Positions 2,162 through 16,431 of a stretch of DNA of 64,000 nt are shown in pieces. The number at the start of each line of letters is the position of its first letter. Within the stretch, counting starts at the first letter, position 1. This DNA is from Streptomyces sp. 6-11-2. GTDB lineage: Bacteria; Actinomycetota; Actinomycetes; Streptomycetales; Streptomycetaceae. The stretch covers positions 496,001 through 560,000 of the forward strand of contig NZ_BJOR01000001.1 of the NCBI RefSeq assembly GCF_006540305.1, in the 5' to 3' direction. The position numbers and the translations under genes were made by a program. Under the pieces are notes generated by a model. It saw only the letters and a list, made by a program, of their open reading frames with translations, made no database searches and was not told the DNA's origin.

Positions 2162-2414
2162 GACGGAGGAGGGGGCGGGCCGGGCACGAGGGCATGAGTG
2201 CTGGTCGGGTCGATCGCCGCCGCCCGTCGGCGTCCGGAACCTCACCATTCAACCCGGCGATCCGACGCCATCCGGCGGCGGCCCCTGGCGGAACTCTGCA
2301 TTGTCATGTTTCCGCCATGCACGATCATTCCGGCGGTGCCGCGCCGCGTGCCACTCTCCGCGAGTGCCGGACGGGCAATCCCCGTCCGGTCCTTCCATGA
2401 GGAGAGGGGTACGA

Positions 2415-5400
2415 GTGCGCACATACTCCACACGCTCCACACGTGTGCGGCGGACCGTCCTGGCGGTGGCCACGGCGTGCATCGTCGCGGTGATCCAGAC
2501 ACCGTCCGCCGGTGCGGACCCAGGCCCGGCTCAGCCGCGGTCGTCGGACTCCGGCGCGGGCACACCCGGCGCCCACCGCCACGGAAAGGCCGACAAGGAC
2601 CTCCCCGGGGCCCACAGAGCCCCGTCGAGCAAGGCAAGAGGCGCGGCCACCAAGGCCGGCGCCCGGGTGAGCTGGAGCCGGTACGGCACCCCGACCACGG
2701 TCGTGCCGGAGGGCGACGGCACCGCCCTGGCGAAGGGGCTGCCGGCCAAGCCCGAGCAGACCGCCCGAGCCTACCTGAAGGCCAACGCGGGCCTGTTCGG
2801 CATCCCGGCCGACCAGGTCGACGACCTCAAGCTGGTGTCGAGCACCCCGATCGGCAAGGGCGCCGCGGTGCTGCTCGCCCAGGAGGTGGACGGCAAGCCG
2901 TTCGGCCGGGACGGCCAGGTCTCCGTGGGTGTGGTCGACGGCACCGTGGTCAGCGTCACCGGCGCACTGGCACCGGTCACCGGCGCACCGAAGGCGGCGA
3001 CCCTGTCGGAGCAGGACGCGATCAAGGCCGCGCTGGCCGATGTGGGGATGGCGCCCGGCAAGCTGACCGCGGCGGACAGCGCCGACAAATGGCGGAAGTT
3101 CGAGGCCTCGGGCCTGTCCGGACAGCAGATCGTGCGCCCCGTCGTGATCGCCGACCCCGACGGCACCGTGCGCTCGGCCTACCAGGTGCAGGCCGGTACG
3201 GCCGGCGAGGAGCCGGAGCTGTACGACAGCGTCGTCGACGCCCGCACCGGCGAGGTGCTGGCCCGCCGGTCCCTGGTCGAGGACGGCGTCGCGGACGGCC
3301 ACGACGGCAATCCGCAGTGGAAGGTCTTCCCCTTCTCTCCCCCACTGGACGACTCGTCCACCGACACCCGCGAGACCTGGTGCTGGGTGGCCGCCCCCGG
3401 CTGCGACCGCGTGATGAGCGACTCCGCCCCGGGCACTCCGCACCACGCCTGGGACATCGCCTCCGGTGAGGGCGGCGGTACCTACGGCACCTCCTACAAG
3501 CTGGGCACCACGCTGGGCTCCAACGCCTTCGCCAGCGACGGTCTGACGGCCACCGGGCGCAACTGGCTCGGCATCGCCCCGGACGTGCGGGCCGACCGGG
3601 TCTACGACTACTCCTACACCGACGCCTGGCACGCCAGCGGCTGCGACCCGAAGGTGCTGACCGACCCCGCGAAGCCGGACCGCGACGCGGCGATCGGCAA
3701 CCTGTTCGCCCAGCACAACGTGATGCACGACTTCTCGTACCAGCTCGGGTTCACCGAGAAGACCTGGAACATGCAGCACGACAACTACGACTTGGGCGGC
3801 AAGGGCGGCGACCCGGAGATGGGCGTGGCCCGCTCCGGCGGCAGCAACCCCAGCACCCGCAACAACGCCAATCAGAGCACCGGCGCCGACGGCGGCGTGG
3901 CCCTGACCAACATGTACCTGTGGCAGCCGCTGGCCGGCGCCTTCTACGGGCGGTGCGCCGACGGTGACTTCGACGCCTCCGTCATCGGCCACGAGTACAC
4001 CCACGCCATCACCAACCGCATGATCGGCGGCGGCACCTCCGGCATCTCCGGTACGCACGGCGGCTCGATGGGCGAGTCCTGGAGCGACCTGGTCGCCACC
4101 GAGCGGCTGATCGAGACCGGCGCGGTCCCGGACGGGGTGGACCCGTGGGTGGTCGGCCCGTACGTGACGGACAACAACGAGCGCGGCATCCGCAACTTCG
4201 CGATCGACCGCAGCCCCCTCAACTACTCCAACTTCGGCTACGACATGGGCGGGGCGGAGGTGCACTCCGACGGCGAGATCTGGAACGCCGTGCAGTACGA
4301 GGTGCGTCAGGCGCTCGTCGGGAAGTACGGCGAGCCGTCCCAGAAGGTGCTCGCCTCGTGCGCGGCCGGTAAGACCTCGGTCGACGCCTGCGGTGGCGGC
4401 CGGCGCTGGATCCAGCTGATGTTCGACTCGTACCTGCTGATGGGCACGGGCAAGATCACCATGATCGACGCGCGTGACGCGATGCTCGCCGCGGACAAGA
4501 TCCGTTACCACGGCGCCGACCTCGACGTCATGTGGGCCGCGTTCGCCAAGCGCGGCATGGGCATCGACGCCACCGCCACCTCGACCAGCGACACCCGGCC
4601 GCACGCGGACTTCGCCACCCCGACCGGCGCCAACGGCAACATCACCTTCAAGGTCGTCAACGGCGGGGACGAGATCCCCAACGCCCGGATCTACATAGGC
4701 CGGTTCAGCGCCCGGACCACGCCGATCGCCGGTACCGCGCCCGACCTCGGCAACAAGGCGCTGTTCACCAAGGGCCACTACGACGCGATCGCGGTCGCCC
4801 CGGGCTACGGCCTGACGCGGTTCGACTTCCAGGTCGACGACGCCTCCAAGCAGACCGTCAAGGTGAAGATGCAGCCCAACCTCGCCTCGGCGGCGGCCGG
4901 CGCCACCGCGACCGGCGACGGGTACAACGCGGCGAAGCTCATCGACGACGACGAGGGCACCAACTGGGCGTACGTCGGTGACAAGACCGGCACTTCGGTG
5001 ACCGGCAAGGGCGTCTACGTCCACCTTGCCGTCGACGGCCCGACCAAGGTCCGCCGCATCCAGGTCAGCGCCGTCAACCGGCCGACCGACAGCAAGGACC
5101 CGGGCGGCGACACGGGCAGTCAGAGCCGCTTCTCGGCGCTGCGCCAGTTCGAGGTCTCGGCCTGCACCCGCACCGCGACCGTCGACTGCTCCCAGCCCAA
5201 GCAGTTCCACGTCGTCTATCTCAGCCCGGCGAACGCCTTCGACGCGCCGAAGCCGCGTCCGGCGGCACCGGACCTGCTCATGCGCAGCTTCGACATCCCG
5301 GCGACCACGGCCACCGACCTGCGCATCGAGGCGATCACCAACCAGTGCGTGGGCAACCCCGCCTACGCGGGCAAGCAGGACAATGACCCGAACAACGTGA

Positions 5401-5471
5401 CGGACTGTGCCACCGGTTCCACGGCGGCGTTCAACGTCCGGGCCTCGGAGTTCCAGGTCTTCGAGAAGTGA
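2415..5471 (+). CDS. Secreted M36 (fungalysin) metalloprotease
   Basis: An extracellular zinc endopeptidase of about 1018 residues. I chose the GTG at 2415 because AGGAGAGGGG lies just upstream; an in-frame ATG at 2397 overlaps that ribosome site. The protein has an Arg-rich start and a Sec signal peptide ending near PSAGA, an FTP/PepSY-like propeptide to about residue 310, then the M36 catalytic domain. The zinc motif HEYTH is at residues 526-530, followed by GESWSDLVATE, which should hold the third ligand Glu. The last ~190 residues look like a discoidin-type binding domain (KLIDDDEGTNWAY). It probably serves protein scavenging. It stands alone and ends at a strong hairpin. Confidence 0.93.
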   Translation: MRTYSTRSTRVRRTVLAVATACIVAVIQTPSAGADPGPAQPRSSDSGAGTPGAHRHGKADKDLPGAHRAPSSKARGAATKAGARVSWSRYGTPTTVVPEGDGTALAKGLPAKPEQTARAYLKANAGLFGIPADQVDDLKLVSSTPIGKGAAVLLAQEVDGKPFGRDGQVSVGVVDGTVVSVTGALAPVTGAPKAATLSEQDAIKAALADVGMAPGKLTAADSADKWRKFEASGLSGQQIVRPVVIADPDGTVRSAYQVQAGTAGEEPELYDSVVDARTGEVLARRSLVEDGVADGHDGNPQWKVFPFSPPLDDSSTDTRETWCWVAAPGCDRVMSDSAPGTPHHAWDIASGEGGGTYGTSYKLGTTLGSNAFASDGLTATGRNWLGIAPDVRADRVYDYSYTDAWHASGCDPKVLTDPAKPDRDAAIGNLFAQHNVMHDFSYQLGFTEKTWNMQHDNYDLGGKGGDPEMGVARSGGSNPSTRNNANQSTGADGGVALTNMYLWQPLAGAFYGRCADGDFDASVIGHEYTHAITNRMIGGGTSGISGTHGGSMGESWSDLVATERLIETGAVPDGVDPWVVGPYVTDNNERGIRNFAIDRSPLNYSNFGYDMGGAEVHSDGEIWNAVQYEVRQALVGKYGEPSQKVLASCAAGKTSVDACGGGRRWIQLMFDSYLLMGTGKITMIDARDAMLAADKIRYHGADLDVMWAAFAKRGMGIDATATSTSDTRPHADFATPTGANGNITFKVVNGGDEIPNARIYIGRFSARTTPIAGTAPDLGNKALFTKGHYDAIAVAPGYGLTRFDFQVDDASKQTVKVKMQPNLASAAAGATATGDGYNAAKLIDDDEGTNWAYVGDKTGTSVTGKGVYVHLAVDGPTKVRRIQVSAVNRPTDSKDPGGDTGSQSRFSALRQFEVSACTRTATVDCSQPKQFHVVYLSPANAFDAPKPRPAAPDLLMRSFDIPATTATDLRIEAITNQCVGNPAYAGKQDNDPNNVTDCATGSTAAFNVRASEFQVFEK

Positions 5472-6969: not shown

Positions 6970-8151
6970 TCAGGCGGGTGAGAAGACGTGGTCGCTGATC
7001 AGCCGAGTGGCGCCGACGACGCCGGCGACCTGGCCGAGCTCGCCGAGGACGATCGGCAGGTTGCCGGTCGCCAACGGCAGGGACTGCCGGTAGACCTGGG
7101 TGCGGATGCTCGCCAGGAGGTTGTGGCCCAGTCCGGTCAGGCCTCCCCCGATGACCACGAGGCCGGGGTTGAAGAAGCTGACCAGACCGGCGATGACCTG
7201 ACCGGTTCGTCGTCCGCCCTGGCGGATCAGGTCCAGGGACGCGGCGTCCCCGGCACCGGCGGCGGCCGACACGTCCTCGGGGGTCAGCCTCCTGGCCGCT
7301 TCGAGCCGTCCGGCCAGTTCCGTCGAGCGGCCGGACTGGGCGAGCGCGGTCGCGTCGCGGACGAGGGCGCTGCCGCCGAAGTACGCCTCCAGGCAACCGA
7401 TGTTCCCGCAGGCGCACCGCGGCCCCTCCGGGTCCGCCTGGATGTGACCGATGTCGCCGGCGCTGCCGGTGACACCGCGATACACCTCGCCGCCGACGAC
7501 GATGCCGCAGCCGATGCCGGTTCCGAGCTTCACGCACAGGAAGTCGCCTACGGACCGGGCGACGCCGGCCTGCTGCTCGCCCAGGGCCATCAGGTTCACG
7601 TCGTTGTCGACGAGGACGGGGCAGCCCAGCTCCTGGCTCATCGCCTCCCGGACGGGGAAGCCGTCCCAGCCGGGCATGATCGGCGGCGCGACGGGGACAC
7701 CCTCGGGGAACCGGACGGGTCCCGGCACGCCGATCCCGGCGCCGTCGAAGTGTTCCGCCAGCCCCGCCTCGCGCAGCTTGCCGGCCAGGGCGAGCACCCG
7801 CTCGAAGACCGCGACCGGGCCTTCCCGCACGTCCAGTGTCTCGGCCACGTGGCCGAGGACGTCCAACTCGGCGTTGGTGACCGCGACGTCGACGGAGGTG
7901 GCGCCGATGTCCACGCCGAGGAACCGCAGCGACGGGGCGATCCGGACGTTGTGCGAGCGGCGGCCACCGCGGGAGGCGGCGAGGCCGTCCTGCACGACCA
8001 GGCCGGTCTCCAGTAGCCGGTCGATCTCGAAGGCGAGCTTGGAACGCGACAGCTCGACCTGCTCCCCCAGGGCGACCCGGGACTGCGGGCCGAGGTCGCG
8101 CAGGAGGCGGAGCAGCCGGGCCTGATGAAGATTGGCCGGTCGAGCCGTCAT
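6970..8151 (-). CDS. ROK-family transcriptional repressor
   Basis: About 393 residues, ATG at 8151 with a GAGG upstream. The N-terminal winged HTH (ALGEQVELSRSKLAFEIDRLL) precedes a ROK kinase fold with the phosphate-binding motif DIGATSVDVAV and the zinc motif CACGNIGCLE after GDIGHI. ROK repressors sense sugars or sugar phosphates. The gene lies upstream of the secreted copper/sugar-oxidation group, which it could control, but that is inference from position only. A longer in-frame start at 8286 exists but lacks conserved sequence. Confidence 0.9.
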   Translation of the reverse strand: MTARPANLHQARLLRLLRDLGPQSRVALGEQVELSRSKLAFEIDRLLETGLVVQDGLAASRGGRRSHNVRIAPSLRFLGVDIGATSVDVAVTNAELDVLGHVAETLDVREGPVAVFERVLALAGKLREAGLAEHFDGAGIGVPGPVRFPEGVPVAPPIMPGWDGFPVREAMSQELGCPVLVDNDVNLMALGEQQAGVARSVGDFLCVKLGTGIGCGIVVGGEVYRGVTGSAGDIGHIQADPEGPRCACGNIGCLEAYFGGSALVRDATALAQSGRSTELAGRLEAARRLTPEDVSAAAGAGDAASLDLIRQGGRRTGQVIAGLVSFFNPGLVVIGGGLTGLGHNLLASIRTQVYRQSLPLATGNLPIVLGELGQVAGVVGATRLISDHVFSPA

Positions 8152-8250
8152 AGACCTCACGCCGCCCCCGTCATGGCAAGAACCGTTCGCATGCCCGGCA
8201 CTTGGGGGGCACGACTTTGGAAAGGACCGTAGCACCGAGCCGCCGCCGAT

Positions 8251-8284
8251 GAAAGAAACTTGTGCACCAACGAGTGGAACTTTC
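8251..8284. promoter_or_regulatory. Imperfect inverted repeat upstream of the ROK gene
   Basis: GAAAGAAACT and AGTGGAACTTTC form an imperfect dyad about 100 bp upstream of the ROK start, inside the only A/T-rich patch of this gap. It is a candidate operator for ROK autoregulation. No binding consensus was used; this is symmetry alone. Confidence 0.3.
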
Positions 8285-8340
8285 ATCTGCGGATGGACAA
8301 AGCCGTGCGCGACAGCTTCATGGACCCGCCGCCGGAGGGT

Positions 8341-8410: not shown

Positions 8411-10609
8411 TCACGCGCCGGAGGGCCCGCGGTTGGGCTTGCCGACGTCGGACTGACCCGCCGCCTTCTTGATCTCGGCGGCCTCCCGCTGGTCGATGAC
8501 ACCCTCGTCCCGCAGCGTCTGGACGACCTTTCCGACGTGGGAGACGAACGTGCCATGGTTCTCCCAGGCCCGGTTGTCCTCGATCAGCTCGTTGATCGTG
8601 CAGCCGTCGGCCGTGACGCGGTTGGGAACACCGGTGTTGATCGAACCGACGAACACGGTGGCCCGGTCGTCCCTTTCCGGACAGTCGGTCGGCGGCTCAC
8701 TGTCGACGACGGTGAGGGACAACGATTTCGGCGTGGACGTGTTGCCGGCCTTGTCGGTGGCCCGGTAGAGGAAGGCATGGCTACCGGCCCTGTCGATCAC
8801 CACCGGCGCCGAGTACTGGAGGTAGGGGCCGCCGTCGAGGGAGTACTCGATCCTGGCCACTCCGGACCCGGCGTCCGAGGCGGACACCGTCACCGTCGCG
8901 CTGCCCACGTAGTTGCCGGAGGCGTCCTTCGTCCCGGACACGGTCGCCGACGTCTCCGGCGGCGTCTTGTCCTCCGGAACAGCCGCCACCACGGTGAACT
9001 GCACCGACTTCACAGCCGACGTGTTCCCCGCCTTGTCCGACGCCCGATACGACAACGTATGCGCACCGACCTGGCTCACCTGAACCGGCGCCGAATAAGC
9101 CGCATAGGCCGCACCGTCCAGCGAATACTCGACCTTCGCCACACCCGACTCAGCATCGGACGCGGACACCGTCACCGTCGCACTGCCCACGTAGTTACCG
9201 GAAGCATCCTTCGTCCCCGACACCGTCGCCGACGTCTCCGGCGGCGTCCTGTCCTCCGGAACAGCCGCCACCACGGTGAACTCCACCGACTTCACAGCCG
9301 ACGTGTTCCCCGCCTTGTCCGACGCCCGATACGACAACGTATGCGCACCGACCTGGCTCACCTCAACCGGCGCCGAATAAGCCGCATAGGCCGCACCGTC
9401 CAGCGAATACTCGACCTTCGCCACACCCGACTCAGCATCGGACGCGGACACCGTCACCGTCGCACTGCCCACGTAGTTACCGGAAGCATCCTTCGTCCCC
9501 GACACCGTCGCCGACGTCTCCGGCGGCGTCCTGTCCTCCGGAACAGCCGCCACCACGGTGAACTCCACCGACTTCACAGCCGACGTGTTCCCCGCCTTGT
9601 CCGACGCCCGATACGACAACGTATGCGCACCGACCTGGCTCACCTCAACCGGCGCCGAATAAGCCGCATAGGCCGCACCGTCCAGCGAATACTCGACCTT
9701 CGCCACACCCGACTCAGCATCGGACGCGGACACCGTCACCGTCGCACTGCCCACGTAGTTACCGGAAGCATCCTTCGTCCCCGACACCGTCGCCGACGTC
9801 TCCGGCGGCGTCCTGTCCTCCGGAACAGCCGCCACCACGGTGAACTCCACCGACTTCACAGCCGACGTGTTCCCCGCCTTGTCCGACGCCCGATACGACA
9901 ACGTATGCGCACCGACCTGGCTCACCTCAACCGGCGCCGAATAAGCCGCATAGGCCGCACCGTCCAGCGAATACTCGACCTTCGCCACACCCGACTCAGC
10001 ATCGGACGCGGACACCGTCACCGTCGCACTGCCCACGTAGTTACCGGAAGCATCCTTCGTCCCCGACACCGTCGCCGACGTCTCCGGCGCGGTGGTGTCG
10101 CCGCCGGCTGCGGGGGTGACGACGAGCTCGCCCGTCATCGACTGGTGGCCCGGCATCGCGCAGAAGTAGCGGTACACGCCGGGCTTGAGGTTGACTTCGG
10201 CCGTGTACTTGCCCCCGTTGGAATCGAAGGGGCTCGCGAAGATGTTGAGGCTGACGTCGTTGTTGTAGTCGGAGTTCGAGACGTCGAACGTCAACGTGTG
10301 GGGCATTCCGGTGGTGTTACCGGTCGCCGCGCTGTTCTCGAACACGATCGTCGTCGGTCCGGCCACCGCGGTGGTGGGGGCCGACGCGTACTTCGTGTAG
10401 TCGTCGCCGGCCGTCCAGGTGAGCACCTGGTTCGCCGCCTTCTCGGACCCGCGGCTCGCCGCCGCGTACGCGGCCGGCACGGCCAGCGAGAAGGCCGCGA
10501 GGGCGACGGCCACCAGCGCCACCAGCACCGGATGTGCGCGGAATCGGTTGCGTGGCGCTGATCTTGAGAGGGGCGGATCCGTCTTGGCATGGAGCAGTCT
10601 TCTGAACAC
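8411..10609 (-). CDS. Secreted cupredoxin with five Ig-like repeats and C-terminal module
   Basis: 732 residues, GTG start with AAAGGTG upstream. A Sec signal runs to about residue 50 (ending AYAAA). Residues ~55-170 form a plastocyanin-like cupredoxin: His in MPHTL and the Cys-His-Met cluster YFCAMPGHQSM are the type-1 copper ligands. Residues 177-640 are five 94-residue OmpL47/Ig-like repeats starting PETSATVSG; the first four are nearly identical at DNA level. Residues 643-732 form a two-Cys module (CTINELIEDN, NHGTFVSHV) also found in the ThuA/sugar dehydrogenase protein at 12397. It likely carries electrons or copper outside the cell, on a stalk of repeats. The laccase is divergent, 482 bp away. 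Confidence 0.85.
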   Translation of the reverse strand: MFRRLLHAKTDPPLSRSAPRNRFRAHPVLVALVAVALAAFSLAVPAAYAAASRGSEKAANQVLTWTAGDDYTKYASAPTTAVAGPTTIVFENSAATGNTTGMPHTLTFDVSNSDYNNDVSLNIFASPFDSNGGKYTAEVNLKPGVYRYFCAMPGHQSMTGELVVTPAAGGDTTAPETSATVSGTKDASGNYVGSATVTVSASDAESGVAKVEYSLDGAAYAAYSAPVEVSQVGAHTLSYRASDKAGNTSAVKSVEFTVVAAVPEDRTPPETSATVSGTKDASGNYVGSATVTVSASDAESGVAKVEYSLDGAAYAAYSAPVEVSQVGAHTLSYRASDKAGNTSAVKSVEFTVVAAVPEDRTPPETSATVSGTKDASGNYVGSATVTVSASDAESGVAKVEYSLDGAAYAAYSAPVEVSQVGAHTLSYRASDKAGNTSAVKSVEFTVVAAVPEDRTPPETSATVSGTKDASGNYVGSATVTVSASDAESGVAKVEYSLDGAAYAAYSAPVQVSQVGAHTLSYRASDKAGNTSAVKSVQFTVVAAVPEDKTPPETSATVSGTKDASGNYVGSATVTVSASDAGSGVARIEYSLDGGPYLQYSAPVVIDRAGSHAFLYRATDKAGNTSTPKSLSLTVVDSEPPTDCPERDDRATVFVGSINTGVPNRVTADGCTINELIEDNRAWENHGTFVSHVGKVVQTLRDEGVIDQREAAEIKKAAGQSDVGKPNRGPSGA
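8952..10079 (-). repeat. Four 282-bp near-identical coding tandem repeats
   Basis: Unit boundaries marked by GTCTCCGG fall at 8952, 9234, 9516, 9798 and 10080, exactly 282 bp (94 codons) apart. The copies at 9234-10080 are almost identical, 8952-9234 has a few changes, and a fifth, diverged copy lies at about 8700-8951. They keep frame and encode Ig-like domains. Confidence 0.95.
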
Positions 10610-11091
10610 CGCTGCACCTTTCGCGAATTCGCTTGTGCGGCACCGCGCAGGGACTCGCGGTCCCGTCTAGTGGATGTCCAGCCGCCGGGATGAGCGCGTC
10701 GAGGGGGTGGTCTCCCGGACCCAACCTCTCTCAAAGTGCGGCAACGTTGGGAAGCTACCGGGCTTTTGACTACTCGCCAAGGTCTATGGCCACAATCCAA
10801 CCAACTTTGACCTGAGTCTGGAAAAACTGGAGGGGCGCCCGCTACGGTGAGGCGGTCCCGAGGCGAATCCCGTTCGCCCAGCCGTCCCGATTCCCGCCGT
10901 ATCCGGCACATCGAGCCAGGCCGGACGGCTGCCACCGGAGTCCGATCCGACGACCGCCCGCCTGCCCCACGGGCCTGAAGCCCCGCGCACCACCGCCCAC
11001 CGCCCTGACGGGACGGCTGCCGTCGGCGGCGGCTCACATCACCACCACGCGACGCCTTCGGGCCCGCACGCGTTCAGAGGATTGGAGAACG
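10610..11091. other. Gene-free divergent region between cupredoxin and laccase genes
   Basis: This 482-bp gap should carry both promoters. It holds a 10-bp palindrome GCGAATTCGC at 10623-10632 in the leader of the cupredoxin gene and an A/T-richer patch at about 10760-10840. I see no convincing -35/-10 pair, terminator or RNA gene. Confidence 0.5.
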
Positions 11092-12114
11092 ATGACCGAC
11101 TCAGGCGCAGGTACGAGACGCTTCTCCCGGCGGGCCTTCGCCACCGGGGCAGCCGCTGCCGCAGTCGTACCCACGGTGCTCGGCATCACCGCGACCGCCG
11201 CCGCCCCGAAGGACAAGCCGGTGGAGGGGAACGGCCAGGGAAACAACAAGGGCACCGTCCGCAACCTGACCCTGTACATGGAGAAGCTGCCGAACGGGGA
11301 AATGGGCTACGGCCTGAAGCCGGGCGAGGCGACGATCCCCGGCCCGCTCATCGAGCTGACCGAGGGCGACACGATGAACATCGAGGTCGTCAACAACCTG
11401 GACGTCGCCGCGAGTCTGCACGTGCACGGCCTGGACTACGACGTCGCCAGCGACGGCACAAGGATGAACGACAGCGTCGTCGAGCCGGGCGGCCGGCGAA
11501 CCTACGTCTGGCGCACCCACGCCCCGTCGAACCAGGGCGGGACATGGGAGGCCGGCAGCGCCGGCTACTGGCACTATCACGATCACAACGTGGGGACCGA
11601 GCACGGCACGGGCGGCATCAAAAAGGGCCTCTACGGCCCCGTGATCGTGCGCCGCAAGGGCGACGTGCTGCCCGACAAGCAGTTCACGGTCGTGTTCAAC
11701 GACATGACGATCAACAACCGGGGCGCCCACGACGCGCCCACCTTCAAGGCCGTCCGCGGTGAGCGAGTGGAGTTCATCGTGATCACACACGGGGACTTCT
11801 TCCACACCTGGCACATCCACGGCCACCGCTGGGTGGACAACCGCACCGGTATCCTCCAGGGTCCGCAAGACGTGAGCCGGGTCATCGACACCAAGACGGT
11901 CGGCCCGGCGGACTCCTTCGGATTCCAGGTGATCGCGGGTGACCGGGTCGGCGCGGGCGCCTGGATGTACCACTGCCACGTCCAGAGCCACTCGGACATG
12001 GGCATGGCCGGTGTGTTCCTCGTGACCGAGGCCGACGGCTCGGTCCCCGGCGGCATGCCCCACCACATGGCCGAGGCCGACGGCTCGGCCGCCGACGGCA
12101 TGCACCACCACTAG
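11092..12114 (+). CDS. Two-domain small laccase (multicopper oxidase)
   Basis: 340 residues, close in length and sequence to the Streptomyces small laccase SLAC. The N terminus has a Tat signal (RRFSRRAF, then an Ala-rich core). Copper ligands are all visible: [17 protein letters not shown] and the C-terminal [10 protein letters not shown] with Cys, His and axial Met. Two-domain laccases act as trimers that oxidise phenols or metals with reduction of O2 to water, and are exported folded with copper. The C-terminal tail is rich in His (GMHHH). ATG at 11092 follows GGAGAACG. Its neighbours are a secreted cupredoxin and a secreted sugar dehydrogenase, which suggests joint extracellular oxidation. 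Confidence 0.96.
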
Positions 12115-12300
12115 AAAGGCAGTGGCGGCGCCCTCGATCCGGGCTCCGCCCCCCAAGCCACGCCCGTCGTACCACCTGACGGTCCGACGGGCGTGTACGA
12201 CTGCCGCCGGCCGGTCCTCACCCGCAAGGACCTGAGGCGAACCTGTCCTCGTCCCTCCGGCACCCGTCCTTCCCGGGCATCGTGACCGCCCGCCGAGATC

Positions 12301-12330
12301 CGCCTCACCCGGCGCACGCCGGGTGAGGCG
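12301..12330 (+). terminator. Hairpin after the laccase gene
   Basis: A perfect 14-bp inverted repeat CGCCTCACCCGGCG with only CA between the arms lies 186 bp past the laccase stop and 67 bp before the next start. It could be a terminator or a leader hairpin of the next gene. Confidence 0.55.
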
Positions 12331-12396
12331 TCCGCGGCAGCCCTCGCTCCATCCCCTGATCACTCTTCCGTTGTCGGATCGAGTCAAGGAGCAAGC

Positions 12397-15300
12397 ATGG
12401 GCAAGAGAGACCGGTTCGCCCTCTCACGACGAAGCGGAGCGCCGCCGTCGCGTCCCGCGCGGGCCTCTGGTCACGCGTGGTCCTGGCGCCGCGCCGTCGT
12501 CCTGCTGTCCAGCGCCGCGCTGACCGTGGGACTTGCCACGCTGCCGGCCGTGGAGGCGAACGCACAGCCGCCGTCCGGGACCGCCCAGGACGCCGGCGCC
12601 GAGAGCCAGGTGAACGTCCTGGTCTTCCACGGACCGGCCGCCAAGCAGGACGACCCCGTGAAGAAGGCCGCGGCGGCGATCGGGAACCTCGGCGAGAAGA
12701 ACGGGTTCAAGGTCGTCGAGTCCGAGGACGCGGGTGTGTTCACCACCGCGAGCCTCGCCAAGTACCGAGGGGTGGTGTTCCTGTCGGCCGACGGCGTGAC
12801 CCTCAACGCCGACCAGGAATCCGCGTTCCAGTCGTACATCAAGAACGGCGGCGGCTTCGTCGGTGTCCACGACGCCGCCCGGGCGCAGTCCGACTCCTCC
12901 TGGTTCACCGGGCTGATCGGCACCCGGCCCGCCCTGGGCCTGCCCGACGCCGAGAAGGTCGTCGAGAGCGCGGTCAACTCGGACAACCCGCCGAGCGAGA
13001 CCAAGGACAAGCTGTTCGACGGCAAGGACGACACCAAGTGGCTGGCCCGTACGCCGACCGCCTGGGTCACCATGAAGCTGGACAAGCCGGTCGCGGTGGT
13101 CAACTACGCTCTGACCTCCGCCAACGACTACCAGGGGCGGGACCCGAAGGACTGGAAGCTCCAGGGTTCGCAGGACGGCCAGAACTGGACGACCCTGGAC
13201 ACCCGGAGCGGCGAGACCTTCCCGTCGCGGTTCCAGACCAGGCAGTTCCAGTTCACCAACACACAGGCCTACCAGCACTACCGGCTGGACATCACCGCGA
13301 ACAGCGGTGAGCCGCTGACCCAGCTGGCCGAGCTGCGGCTGTTCAACGCCAACCCGACGCCTCCGCAGGCCTCCAAGGTCCAGCAGGCCGTGGTCGACGT
13401 GACGGACCGCCAGCACCCGGCCAACGAGGGCCTGCCGCTCAACTGGACCCGCTCCGACCAGTGGATCAACTGGGACCCGAACCCGGTCGGCAAGGTCCAC
13501 ACCATCGCCCAGGTCGAGGAGTGGAAGTACAAGCCGGGAGCAGGCTCCAACGGCGCGTTCCACCCGATCTCGTGGTGCCGTGACTACGACGGCGGCCGGT
13601 CCTTCTACACCGGCATGGGCCGCACCGAGGAGAGCTACACCACCGACACGAAGTTCCAGAGCCACCTCCTCGGCGCCATCCAGTGGACCACCGGTATGGT
13701 CCGCGGCGACTGCCAGGCGACCATCGCCTCCAACTACAAGACCGAGCGGCTGACGGCCCAGAACCAGGCGGGGCAGCTCGACCAGATCGGTGAGCCGCAC
13801 GGTCTCACCATGGCCCCCGACGGCAAGGCCTTCTACATCGGCAAGGCCGCCTGCCCGTCCGGCCCGATCGCCGACTGGAACGACCCCAAGGTCGGCCTGG
13901 GCTGCGGCACCATCCACCAGTGGGACCCCAAGACCCAGAAGGTCAAGCTGCTCACCACGCTCGACGTGATGGGCAACCGGGGCAGCGGTAGCGAACTGGT
14001 CAAGAACGAAGAGGGCCTCGTCGGCATCACCCTCGACCCGAAGTTCGAGAAGAACGGGTGGATCTACATCTACTGGATGCCGCACGAGTCGATCGACCGC
14101 GACAAGCGGATCGGCCAGCGGACGGTCTCCCGGCTGACCTACGACTTCGCGTCCGAGTCCATCGACCAGGGCACCCGCAAGGACCTGCTGCACTGGGACA
14201 CCCAGATCCACAGCTGCTGCCACGCCGGTGGCGGCATGTCCTTCGACAAGGACGGCAACCTCTACATCGGCTCCGGCGACAACAACTCCTCCGAGGGCTC
14301 CAGCGGCTACTCCGGTAACAACTGGACCCAGGACTACAAGGGCGTCTCCTTCCAGGACGCGCGCCGCACCTCCGGCAACACCAACGACCTCAACGGCAAG
14401 ATCATCCGCATCCACCCCGAGTCCGACGGCACCTACACCATCCCCAAGGGCAACCTCTTCGCGCCGGGCACGGCCAAGACCCGCCCGGAGATCTACGTGA
14501 TGGGTGTCCGCAACATCGCGCGGCTCTCCATCGACCCGGTGCACAACTGGCTGAACGCCGGCTGGGTCGGTCCGGACGCGGGAGCCTCCAACCCGGAGCT
14601 GGGCCCGGCCAAGTACGAGACGGCCACGGTCATCACCTCCGCGGGCAACCAGGGCTGGCCGTACTGCATGGGCAACCGGCAGCCCTACCGTGACCGCAGC
14701 AGCACCGACGCCAGCGTCCTCACCGGCTGGTACGACTGCGACCACCTCAAGAACGAGTCGCCGCGCAACACCGGCCTGGTGGACATCCCGCCGGCCCGCG
14801 ACAACATGATCTGGTACTCGCCCCAGGGCGGCGGGCCGGTCTTCCCCGAGCGCTCCGACGGCAGCGGCGTCCCCAGCTACGTCGACAGCGAGGCCACCTA
14901 CACCCAGCCGTACCTCAAGGGCGGCGGCCAGGCCATCATGTCCGGTCCGACCTACCACCGCTCCCAGGTGGACACCAAGAGCGGTGTCGCCTGGCCGGCG
15001 TACTGGGAGGACAAGTGGTTCATCGGTGACGAGTCCAACGCCAACAACCGGGTCGCGGTGACCCTCGACCCCGACCACATCAAGGACCAGGGCGCGCCGG
15101 CCTTCGGTGAGGACGTGCGCAGCATCATCGCGCCCGGCAGCGGCGCCACCCAGCTGCAGAGCTGGATGGATGCCAAGTTCGGTCCCGACGGTGCCCTGTA
15201 CATGCTCGACTACGCGGGCGGCTTCTTCAGCCTGCACAACAACCAGAAGCTCATCCGCATCTCCTACCAGGGCGGCCCGGCCACCCCGAAGCCGCAGGAC

Positions 15301-16431
15301 GCGGGGGCGCGGGTCATCACCCAGAGCAAGCCGAAGGCGGTGGCGTTCTCCAGCGCCAAGACCGGCGGTGTGGCCTGGGAGTGGGACTTCGGCGACGGCA
15401 GCAAGCCCTCGCACGAGGCCAACCCGACGCACACGTACGCCGACTACGGCACGTACCACGCGAAGCTGACGGTCACCTACGCCAACGGCGAGAAGGCCAC
15501 CGCGACGCTCGACGCCAAGGCCGGCTGCCCGGCTCCCGACGCCCGGCCGACCGTCCAGCTGCTGGACACCGACACGGGCGTCACCAACCACAAGGCCGGA
15601 GGCGGCTGCACCGTCAACGACCTGATCGACGACGAGGCCTCCTGGTCGAACCACGGCGAGTTCGTCAGCCACGTCAACTCCGTGGTCAACGACCTCCGCA
15701 AGGAGGGCGTCCTCGACAACCAGGAGTCGGCGGCGATCAGCAAGGCGGCGGCGAAGTCCGAGATCGGCAAGGTCGCCGGGTACAAGTCCATCTTCGACGG
15801 AACCGCGGCGAGTCTGTCCGACTGGCGGCAGGCGGGTGCGGGTTCGTTCTCGGTCCAGCCTGACGGCACCATGCGCAGCACCGGCGGCATGGGCATGCTG
15901 TGGTACGCCAAGGAGGAGTTGAAGGACTTCTCGGTCAGGCTCCAGTTCCGGGACGTGGCTCCGGGTACCGCCAACACCAACAGCGGAGTCTTCGTCCGGT
16001 TCCCGGACCCGCGGACACCGCTGGCGGAGCGCCCGGCCGGCAGTTGCGGGACGGTGGGCTCGGCCCGTACCGCCCCCGAGTGGGTCGCGATCTACTGCGG
16101 CCATGAGATCCAGATCTACGACGGGGCCACGGGCGAGGTCCAGAAGACCGGTTCCGTCTACAACTTCAAACCGCTCGGCCTGGACAAGGCGGGGGTGACC
16201 CCGAAGGGCCAGTGGAACGACTACGAGGTGCGTGCGGTCGGGCAGCACTACACGATCATCCGCAACGGCGTGGTGATCAACGAGTTCGACAACACGCCCG
16301 GCAAGTCGTCGTCCCGTGCGGGTGACCCGCCCACGGACCTGCGTCAGTTCCTCAGCGGGTACATCGGGCTGCAGAACCACAGCAACACCGATCTGACCGA
16401 GTTCCGCAACATCCGGGTACGAAGCCTGTAG
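12397..16431 (+). CDS. Secreted ThuA / discoidin / PQQ sugar dehydrogenase / PKD / DUF1080 protein
   Basis: 1344 residues; ATG follows AAGGAGCAAGC. A long twin-Arg-like N region and signal end near VEANA (~55). Order: first half of a ThuA-like domain (~65-175), an F5/8-type discoidin domain (~190-330, LFDGKDDTKW), second half of ThuA (~335-445), a soluble PQQ-type sugar dehydrogenase beta-propeller (~450-965; EPHGLTMAPDG, EEGLVGITLDP, VMGVRN), a PKD domain (~970-1040; WDFGDGS), the two-Cys module shared with the 8411 gene (1044-1125), and a DUF1080 (3-keto-disaccharide hydrolase) domain (~1130-1344). Sugar oxidation plus 3-keto-glycoside hydrolysis in one polypeptide is suggested. The exact substrate is unknown. 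Confidence 0.88.
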   Translation: MGKRDRFALSRRSGAPPSRPARASGHAWSWRRAVVLLSSAALTVGLATLPAVEANAQPPSGTAQDAGAESQVNVLVFHGPAAKQDDPVKKAAAAIGNLGEKNGFKVVESEDAGVFTTASLAKYRGVVFLSADGVTLNADQESAFQSYIKNGGGFVGVHDAARAQSDSSWFTGLIGTRPALGLPDAEKVVESAVNSDNPPSETKDKLFDGKDDTKWLARTPTAWVTMKLDKPVAVVNYALTSANDYQGRDPKDWKLQGSQDGQNWTTLDTRSGETFPSRFQTRQFQFTNTQAYQHYRLDITANSGEPLTQLAELRLFNANPTPPQASKVQQAVVDVTDRQHPANEGLPLNWTRSDQWINWDPNPVGKVHTIAQVEEWKYKPGAGSNGAFHPISWCRDYDGGRSFYTGMGRTEESYTTDTKFQSHLLGAIQWTTGMVRGDCQATIASNYKTERLTAQNQAGQLDQIGEPHGLTMAPDGKAFYIGKAACPSGPIADWNDPKVGLGCGTIHQWDPKTQKVKLLTTLDVMGNRGSGSELVKNEEGLVGITLDPKFEKNGWIYIYWMPHESIDRDKRIGQRTVSRLTYDFASESIDQGTRKDLLHWDTQIHSCCHAGGGMSFDKDGNLYIGSGDNNSSEGSSGYSGNNWTQDYKGVSFQDARRTSGNTNDLNGKIIRIHPESDGTYTIPKGNLFAPGTAKTRPEIYVMGVRNIARLSIDPVHNWLNAGWVGPDAGASNPELGPAKYETATVITSAGNQGWPYCMGNRQPYRDRSSTDASVLTGWYDCDHLKNESPRNTGLVDIPPARDNMIWYSPQGGGPVFPERSDGSGVPSYVDSEATYTQPYLKGGGQAIMSGPTYHRSQVDTKSGVAWPAYWEDKWFIGDESNANNRVAVTLDPDHIKDQGAPAFGEDVRSIIAPGSGATQLQSWMDAKFGPDGALYMLDYAGGFFSLHNNQKLIRISYQGGPATPKPQDAGARVITQSKPKAVAFSSAKTGGVAWEWDFGDGSKPSHEANPTHTYADYGTYHAKLTVTYANGEKATATLDAKAGCPAPDARPTVQLLDTDTGVTNHKAGGGCTVNDLIDDEASWSNHGEFVSHVNSVVNDLRKEGVLDNQESAAISKAAAKSEIGKVAGYKSIFDGTAASLSDWRQAGAGSFSVQPDGTMRSTGGMGMLWYAKEELKDFSVRLQFRDVAPGTANTNSGVFVRFPDPRTPLAERPAGSCGTVGSARTAPEWVAIYCGHEIQIYDGATGEVQKTGSVYNFKPLGLDKAGVTPKGQWNDYEVRAVGQHYTIIRNGVVINEFDNTPGKSSSRAGDPPTDLRQFLSGYIGLQNHSNTDLTEFRNIRVRSL

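Follow-up and report, generated by a model that had tools for sequence, protein, structure and literature searches.

A two-cysteine module family in a Streptomyces locus encoding a sugar dehydrogenase-like protein, a blue-copper protein and a small laccase

The locus and its two module copies

Two neighbouring genes in a 64,000-nucleotide stretch of the Streptomyces sp. 6-11-2 genome (contig NZ_BJOR01000001.1; the whole stretch is called the window here) encode proteins that share an 82-residue module with two cysteines. Protein A, the ThuA/sugar-dehydrogenase protein, joins a ThuA domain and a glucose/sorbosone dehydrogenase-like domain (GSDH) to the module and to a 3-keto-disaccharide hydrolase domain (3KDH). 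Protein B, the cupredoxin protein, ends in the second copy, and a small laccase (SLAC) gene lies between the two (Table 1). Signal peptides were assessed by eye.

Table 1. Features of the locus in window coordinates
Feature	Position	Strand	Remarks
ROK-family gene adjoining B	6970..8286	-	candidate sugar-responsive regulator
Gene of protein B	8411..10609	-	signal peptide-like N terminus (judged by eye), cupredoxin, repeats, module
Tail of B	8411..8437	-	8 residues and stop codon
Module copy of B	8438..8683	-	residues 643-724 of 732 aa; 82 aa, C-terminal, no 3KDH behind
Five ~94-aa OmpL47-type / CHB_HEX_C_1 repeats of B	8696..10105	-	
Type-1 copper cupredoxin domain of B	10106..10444	-	H-C-H-M ligands
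Two-domain multicopper oxidase, Streptomyces SLAC family	11092..12114	+	
Gene of protein A	12397..16431	+	ThuA (split by F5/8 type C) - GSDH - PKD - module - 3KDH
ThuA domain of A	12577..13701	+	F5/8 type C domain inserted at about 12982-13341
GSDH domain of A	13732..15261	+	
Module copy of A	15526..15771	+	residues 1044-1125 of 1344 aa; 82 aa, directly before 3KDH
3KDH (DUF1080) domain of A	15775..16428	+	

The module copies of A and B aligned by BLASTP without gaps, with 43 of 82 positions identical and 55 of 82 positive (E 4e-25), so their likeness is not due to chance. This agrees with the first-pass annotation, which had counted the same identities and had pointed to both cysteines and the runs NHG and FVSHV as common to the two copies. 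Its span for the module in B, 8411-8683, holds for 8438-8683, the remainder being the tail and stop codon. Only two convincing copies exist in the whole 8.7-Mb genome, the next match having an E value of 0.645, and profile searches likewise returned two. The copies lie 7 kb apart in one genome, as a recent and functionally meaningless duplication or gene conversion within this locus would leave them. This explanation is contradicted by the module tree, in which the A copies and the B copies of Streptomyces form different clades, each together with its counterparts elsewhere. The window's A and B copies are 90% and 96% identical to counterparts elsewhere, respectively, as against 52% to each other, and we consider such an origin extremely improbable.

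The cupredoxin domain of B scored 25.4 bits against PF00127 (cut-off 21.2), and the GSDH domain of A scored 70.7 bits against PF07995 (cut-off 25). Matches of the GSDH domain to solved proteins were weak, with 2ism at E 3.2e-7 and 3a9g at 5.3e-5. The window's oxidase consists of Cu-oxidase_3 and Cu-oxidase_2 domains, with the type-1 copper ligands in the second. Its best match in the PDB was 9ix9 (E 4e-187), and it matched 3cg8, which we take to be the S. coelicolor SLAC, at E 9.9e-139. It is a member of the Streptomyces two-domain SLAC group. Protein B had been described as a cupredoxin-repeat protein. In fact a single cupredoxin domain is followed by five OmpL47-type repeats; relatives' B-type proteins have three to eight such repeats, and one further protein has two. 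The F5/8 type C insertion within ThuA also occurs in the first set of A relatives, except at loci L036 and L047.

The module family and its carriers

When the window's proteins were scanned, no model in Pfam-A or NCBIfam covered the module, and 47 module relatives scanned singly against Pfam still gave no covering family. The earlier remark that it could not be placed in a known family is thus supported. The top Pfam candidate was Abhydrolase_10 (PF20091), found for 11 of the 47 copies at E values up to 1, with a best value of 0.0041. One Abhydrolase_10 protein (L122:692-2851) has a C-terminal helical hairpin (NHGGYV..V) resembling the second half of the module. FIMAH (PF22888) is similar to the module in being a helical domain of about 80 residues in long proteins of this phylum, but the two show no sequence match. 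The FIMAH model matched nothing in the window's genome, although it gave matches in 18 of 296 genomes from this phylum. The hhalign probability was 15.6% over 35 columns against 15 members and 14.1% with a wider module set, and this assignment was rejected.

AlphaFold2, run on the module with a 47-row alignment, gave a model with pLDDT 96.2 and pTM 0.86. In this model the module is a small alpha/beta domain with three short strands (positions 9-12, 15-20, and 23-25) and three helices (30-34, 43-59, and 65-77). C1, V10, C28, and G81 were invariant in the 47 rows, while H43, F46, V47, H49, and V50 were kept in at least 90% of them. C1 and C28 probably form a disulfide.

A genome scan with A's copy over a collection of 84,980 species' genomes gave at least 46 loci, the basis of all counts out of 46 below; by their titles, 45 are actinobacterial and one is a Rhodocyclaceae bin. 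Together with the window they hold 76 module copies, and 20 from further relatives brought the set to 96, which were sorted by companion domains in the same protein. This gave 39 GSDH-bearing copies (A type), 22 with repeats and no 3KDH (B type), 16 with repeats and 3KDH, 7 module-3KDH proteins, and 12 others. The last group comprises a 5'-nucleotidase of the Rhodocyclaceae bin and 11 Cys-less relatives of the module. The Cys-less form closes GH127 proteins: 10 of its 11 hosts (L058-L068, from relatives within the same taxonomic order as the window) hold a GH127 region of the beta-L-arabinofuranosidase type, five by Pfam and all ten by comparison with one of these, whereas L058 has it on a short frame. 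In the Rhodocyclaceae bin (L049:522-2498) the module is N-terminal on a metallophosphatase/5'-nucleotidase; no other clear case was seen outside Actinomycetota. In that bin's phylum the module profile matched 2 of 299 genomes, one being the bin itself and the other matching positions 37-80 only. When stand-alone "NHG..VS" proteins of Proteobacteria were considered as possible relatives, the profile gave 13 short proteins in total, several on contigs of about 1 kb.

The module was detected in 23 of 61 near relatives (E 0.01), 13 of 296 genomes across the phylum (E 0.001), and 155 of 246 Streptomyces-genus genomes (E 1e-4). In further genomes of the phylum it ends proteins of the types ThuA-GSDH-PKD-CBM6-3KDH, GSDH-PKD-CBM6, ThuA-GSDH, and PA14-CBM6-3KDH, as well as a GH115_C-bearing protein. 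A protein search with residues 651-732 of B, a query without the first 8 module residues (643-650) and with the 8 tail residues, gave 43 rows, all listing Ig-like-repeat, cupredoxin or 3KDH domains. A further protein search recovered nothing beyond the protein from which its query was taken.

By their domains, most of the examined carriers act on sugars, and many also have CBM6, CBM35, F5/8, Laminin_G_3 or PKD domains. The module could therefore be a small carbohydrate-binding domain that tethers both proteins to the same polysaccharide and not to each other. The Cys-less form at the end of GH127 proteins and the module at the end of the GH115_C-bearing protein fit this explanation. However, most known carbohydrate-binding modules are beta-sandwiches, and the module model is mostly helical. 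The module also has few aromatic positions (W40 in 79% and F46 in 88% of the Cys-bearing set), and the 5'-nucleotidase is a poor fit as a carrier. We regard glycan binding as somewhat unlikely.

The module-3KDH pair and the locus shared with SLAC

In protein A, 3KDH starts about two residues past the module, and five additional Streptomyces-genus loci show the same start. Of 35 rows, 29 have a motif near the 3KDH start at a distance of 86 to 92 residues from C1, and in the other 6 it was not found. The linker is short and slightly variable. Residues 1128-1342 of A scored 120.2 bits against PF06439 (cut-off 26.8). The first 19 rows of a Foldseek search (E 5.6e-12 to 2.2e-9) were solved members of the PF06439 kind, among them BT2157. 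Thirteen entries are titled putative sugar/glycosyl hydrolase or 3-keto-glycoside eliminase/hydratase, and 11 of these match by sequence as well. The domain behind the module thus belongs to the DUF1080/3KDH family by profile and fold, and cleavage of a 3-keto glycoside is its predicted activity. The solved members align to the module-3KDH profile from position 70 or later, and the module is present in none of the 12 listed.

The module-3KDH pair also ends cupredoxin-repeat proteins in seven Micromonospora loci and in all nine Streptomyces-genus loci fetched for this pair from 20 strong-match genomes among near relatives, the window's own left out. Seven short proteins consist of the pair as a stand-alone unit. 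The pair is therefore shuffled among the parts, being found on A, on B or alone, and since B relatives bear the same pair as A, the module shared in the window can stem from shuffling of a module-3KDH unit. A tandem model (pLDDT 94.4, pTM 0.90) suggests that module and 3KDH keep a fixed mutual arrangement.

This close association raises the alternative that the module is a mere structural brace or folding aid of 3KDH, with the window's B copy a remnant left after 3KDH loss. The adjacency of the two domains in A, in the Micromonospora and Streptomyces-genus cupredoxin-type proteins, and in the seven stand-alone proteins favors it, as does the pTM of the tandem model. In the module tree, built on few columns and with 22 open forks, the Streptomyces B copies without 3KDH group with Streptomyces copies that precede 3KDH (support 100/97), which is also in line with a brace. 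3KDH may have been lost from B or gained in B's sister. On the other hand, 22 of the 96 copies belong to B-type proteins that have kept the module without 3KDH, and these come from several families. The module also closes GH127, GSDH-CBM6, and some ThuA-GSDH proteins, where no 3KDH adjoins it. Median dN/dS was 0.35 for the B copy without 3KDH and 0.31 for the A copy (28 pairs each, eight Streptomyces), which indicates that the B module remains under purifying selection. A bare brace is unlikely on this evidence. The cupredoxin domain gave only 4 pairs, and its dN/dS was not used.

In 35 of the 46 loci, which span several actinobacterial families, gene maps and tblastn found a multicopper oxidase alongside both an A-type GSDH protein and a B-type protein (34 by tblastn, and L017 by gene map, where the B gene runs off the contig). 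Ten loci had neither B-type protein nor oxidase, L015 and L037 of these being on cut contigs, and L047, which also lacks an oxidase, has the repeats within a single long protein. Oxidases of the other loci (L011 onwards) were 42 to 84% identical to the window's. For one taken from a Streptomyces-genus cupredoxin-module-3KDH locus, 3cg8 was the closest match (E 9.4e-177), which places it in the SLAC group as well. B and the oxidase are separated by a xylose isomerase-like TIM-barrel gene in four Micromonospora loci, L012 (2537-3499), L021, L027, and L040. The cupredoxin H-C-H-M ligands were kept in all 39 loci aligned, and 11 of 12 checked laccase positions did not vary in 35 of 35 loci. H161, the twelfth, was kept in 27 and differed in 8, and it may be a wrongly chosen ligand. 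The GSDH residues His, Gly, Gly, Arg, and Asn, which we take to be catalytic, were kept in 50 of 50 loci aligned.

Co-occurrence was surveyed in 246 Streptomyces-genus genomes with a module threshold of 1e-4 and the window's laccase as query at E 1e-60. The laccase was found in 156 genomes. Module and SLAC occurred together in 145, the module alone in 2, SLAC alone in 11, and neither in 88 (Fisher p 1.8e-51, uncorrected for kinship). Eight genomes with weaker module matches (best E above 1e-25), none with the laccase, were counted as lacking the module; counting them as carriers changes the numbers to 145, 10, 11, and 80, respectively. Among the matches listed, 138 genomes had positions for both, and in 135 of them module and laccase were on one contig with low ends about 2.7 to 5.2 kb apart, on opposite strands in 134 of the 135. 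The remaining 3 had them on different contigs. Ten loci were mapped, six of them from genomes already used for the fetched module-3KDH loci. Seven showed the laccase, a divergent ThuA-GSDH gene, and then a cupredoxin-repeats-module-3KDH gene. In L136 and L137, where gene calling missed the flanking genes, module and laccase flank ThuA-GSDH by match positions, and L135 is of a different type, with the module at the end of a ThuA-GSDH-PKD protein and no laccase. The genomic linkage of module and SLAC is strong.

The recurrence of the module beside redox and sugar-oxidation enzymes, which the first-pass annotation had named as the support to look for, was thus observed across loci. That annotation holds as to the unassigned status of the module and its redox and sugar context. 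Its description of the two carriers as otherwise unrelated does not hold, because A and B are conserved neighbours, with SLAC, in one locus, and B relatives carry the module-3KDH pair of A. We conclude that A, B, and SLAC very probably act together.

Copper sites are present in two of the three conserved proteins, and the available portions of PMC5675413 and PMC7036934 put forward copper homeostasis, morphogenesis, and lignin degradation as possible roles of bacterial laccases. The locus might then serve copper handling or phenol oxidation with the sugar domains as passengers. We judge this improbable, as the GSDH protein is present in 43 of the 46 loci compared with 35 for the oxidase, and the ThuA/GSDH gene adjoins the cupredoxin-repeats-module-3KDH gene in each of the nine Streptomyces-genus loci fetched.

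The ROK-family gene adjoins B in few of the other loci. Upstream of the locus in the window is an M36 (fungalysin-type) metallopeptidase gene (2301-5471), for which nothing pointed to a connection with the locus. One palindrome was found when the intergenic region was scanned for inverted repeats.

A candidate extracellular sugar-oxidising system

The module is fused with 3KDH, with the ThuA/GSDH protein, and with the blue-copper protein, and these genes sit with SLAC. From this arrangement we infer a scheme in which the dehydrogenase domain would oxidise a glycoside outside the cell, B would take up the electrons at its type-1 copper and pass them to SLAC, and SLAC would reduce O2 to water. 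3KDH would cleave the 3-keto sugar product. The module may keep B and the 3KDH-bearing protein together, by mutual binding or by binding the same partner or polymer. Whether electrons flow to SLAC in this way is, in our judgement, evenly balanced. An assembly or docking role for the module is tentatively preferred over glycan binding or a mere brace because both halves of the system retain the module, even if 3KDH is missing. Both alternatives are nevertheless serious rivals. Taken as a whole, it is plausible, though still open to doubt, that the module is non-catalytic and serves to assemble an extracellular sugar-oxidising system that hands electrons to blue copper and SLAC.

Several parts of this scheme have counterparts in known systems. 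In Caulobacter LacABC, extracytoplasmic sugar oxidation is likewise followed by a DUF1080 protein, with the genes together, and mutant fitness led to the proposal that this protein acts downstream of lactose 3-oxidation; the dehydrogenase there is membrane-bound, unlike the GSDH-type domain, blue copper, and SLAC here (PMC9007349, relevant portions). A fungal dehydrogenase dependent on pyrroloquinoline quinone (PQQ) is similar in pairing a sugar-oxidising enzyme with a dedicated metal-bearing domain, but it has its own cytochrome b domain, whereas the cupredoxin here is on a separate protein (PMC6881789, in the portion available). Dockerin-cohesin pairs are likewise small modules that could assemble secreted carbohydrate enzymes, but in the present locus both partners carry the same module.

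The cofactor is the main weak point of the scheme, and PQQ in the GSDH domain is uncertain. PqqE was found above its curated cut-off in the window's genome, but in only 5 of the 41 genomes searched. Among the 14 strongly module-bearing genomes of these 41, the window's own included, 12 had no PqqE over the cut-off and 2 did (G000 and G006). PQQ may thus be taken from outside, or the cofactor differs. Further points also weigh against the scheme. Known soluble relatives of GSDH oxidise C1, not C3. The oxidase is missing from 11 of the 46 loci, 11 Streptomyces-genus genomes have SLAC without the module, and the Fisher value takes no account of kinship. Micromonospora oxidases are only 42-45% identical to the window's. 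The structural models cover the module and module-3KDH alone. Some carriers are unrelated in function or place, namely the GH127 proteins with the Cys-less relative and the 5'-nucleotidase, which tells against docking in particular. In addition, a laccase-negative Streptomyces mutant was studied for lignin degradation, a role needing no sugar partner (PMC5675413, in the portion available).

SLAC is known as an oxidase of phenols and lignin in vitro, and here it is set beside sugar-oxidising partners. Bacterial laccase roles are listed as proposed or speculative in the accessible parts of PMC7036934 and PMC5675413, and a 2026 paper describes the physiological roles of two-domain multicopper oxidases as poorly understood (PMC13151041, in part). 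Among the matches listed in the open-access literature, no description of this locus, or of SLAC tied to a sugar-oxidation set, was found, and the available portions of PMC3192119 and PMC10628242 yielded no gene-neighbourhood statement on it. The individual parts are of known kinds; new here are the module family without a library model and the tie of SLAC to a sugar-oxidation set.

Herein, our findings delimit a domain family for which the searched Pfam and NCBIfam libraries have no model; it would be a candidate for inclusion in both. The module marks a conserved gene set of a sugar-oxidising enzyme, a blue-copper protein, and a small laccase. SLAC is a widely used bacterial laccase whose cellular job is unsettled, and its near-constant genomic partner set in Streptomyces suggests a testable hypothesis for its natural job. 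Although we put it forward with reserve, SLAC may in nature be the terminal oxidase of a secreted sugar-oxidising complex, in which the ThuA-GSDH protein would make a keto sugar, the blue-copper protein would carry the electrons, 3KDH would cleave the product, and the new docking module on the parts would hold them together.

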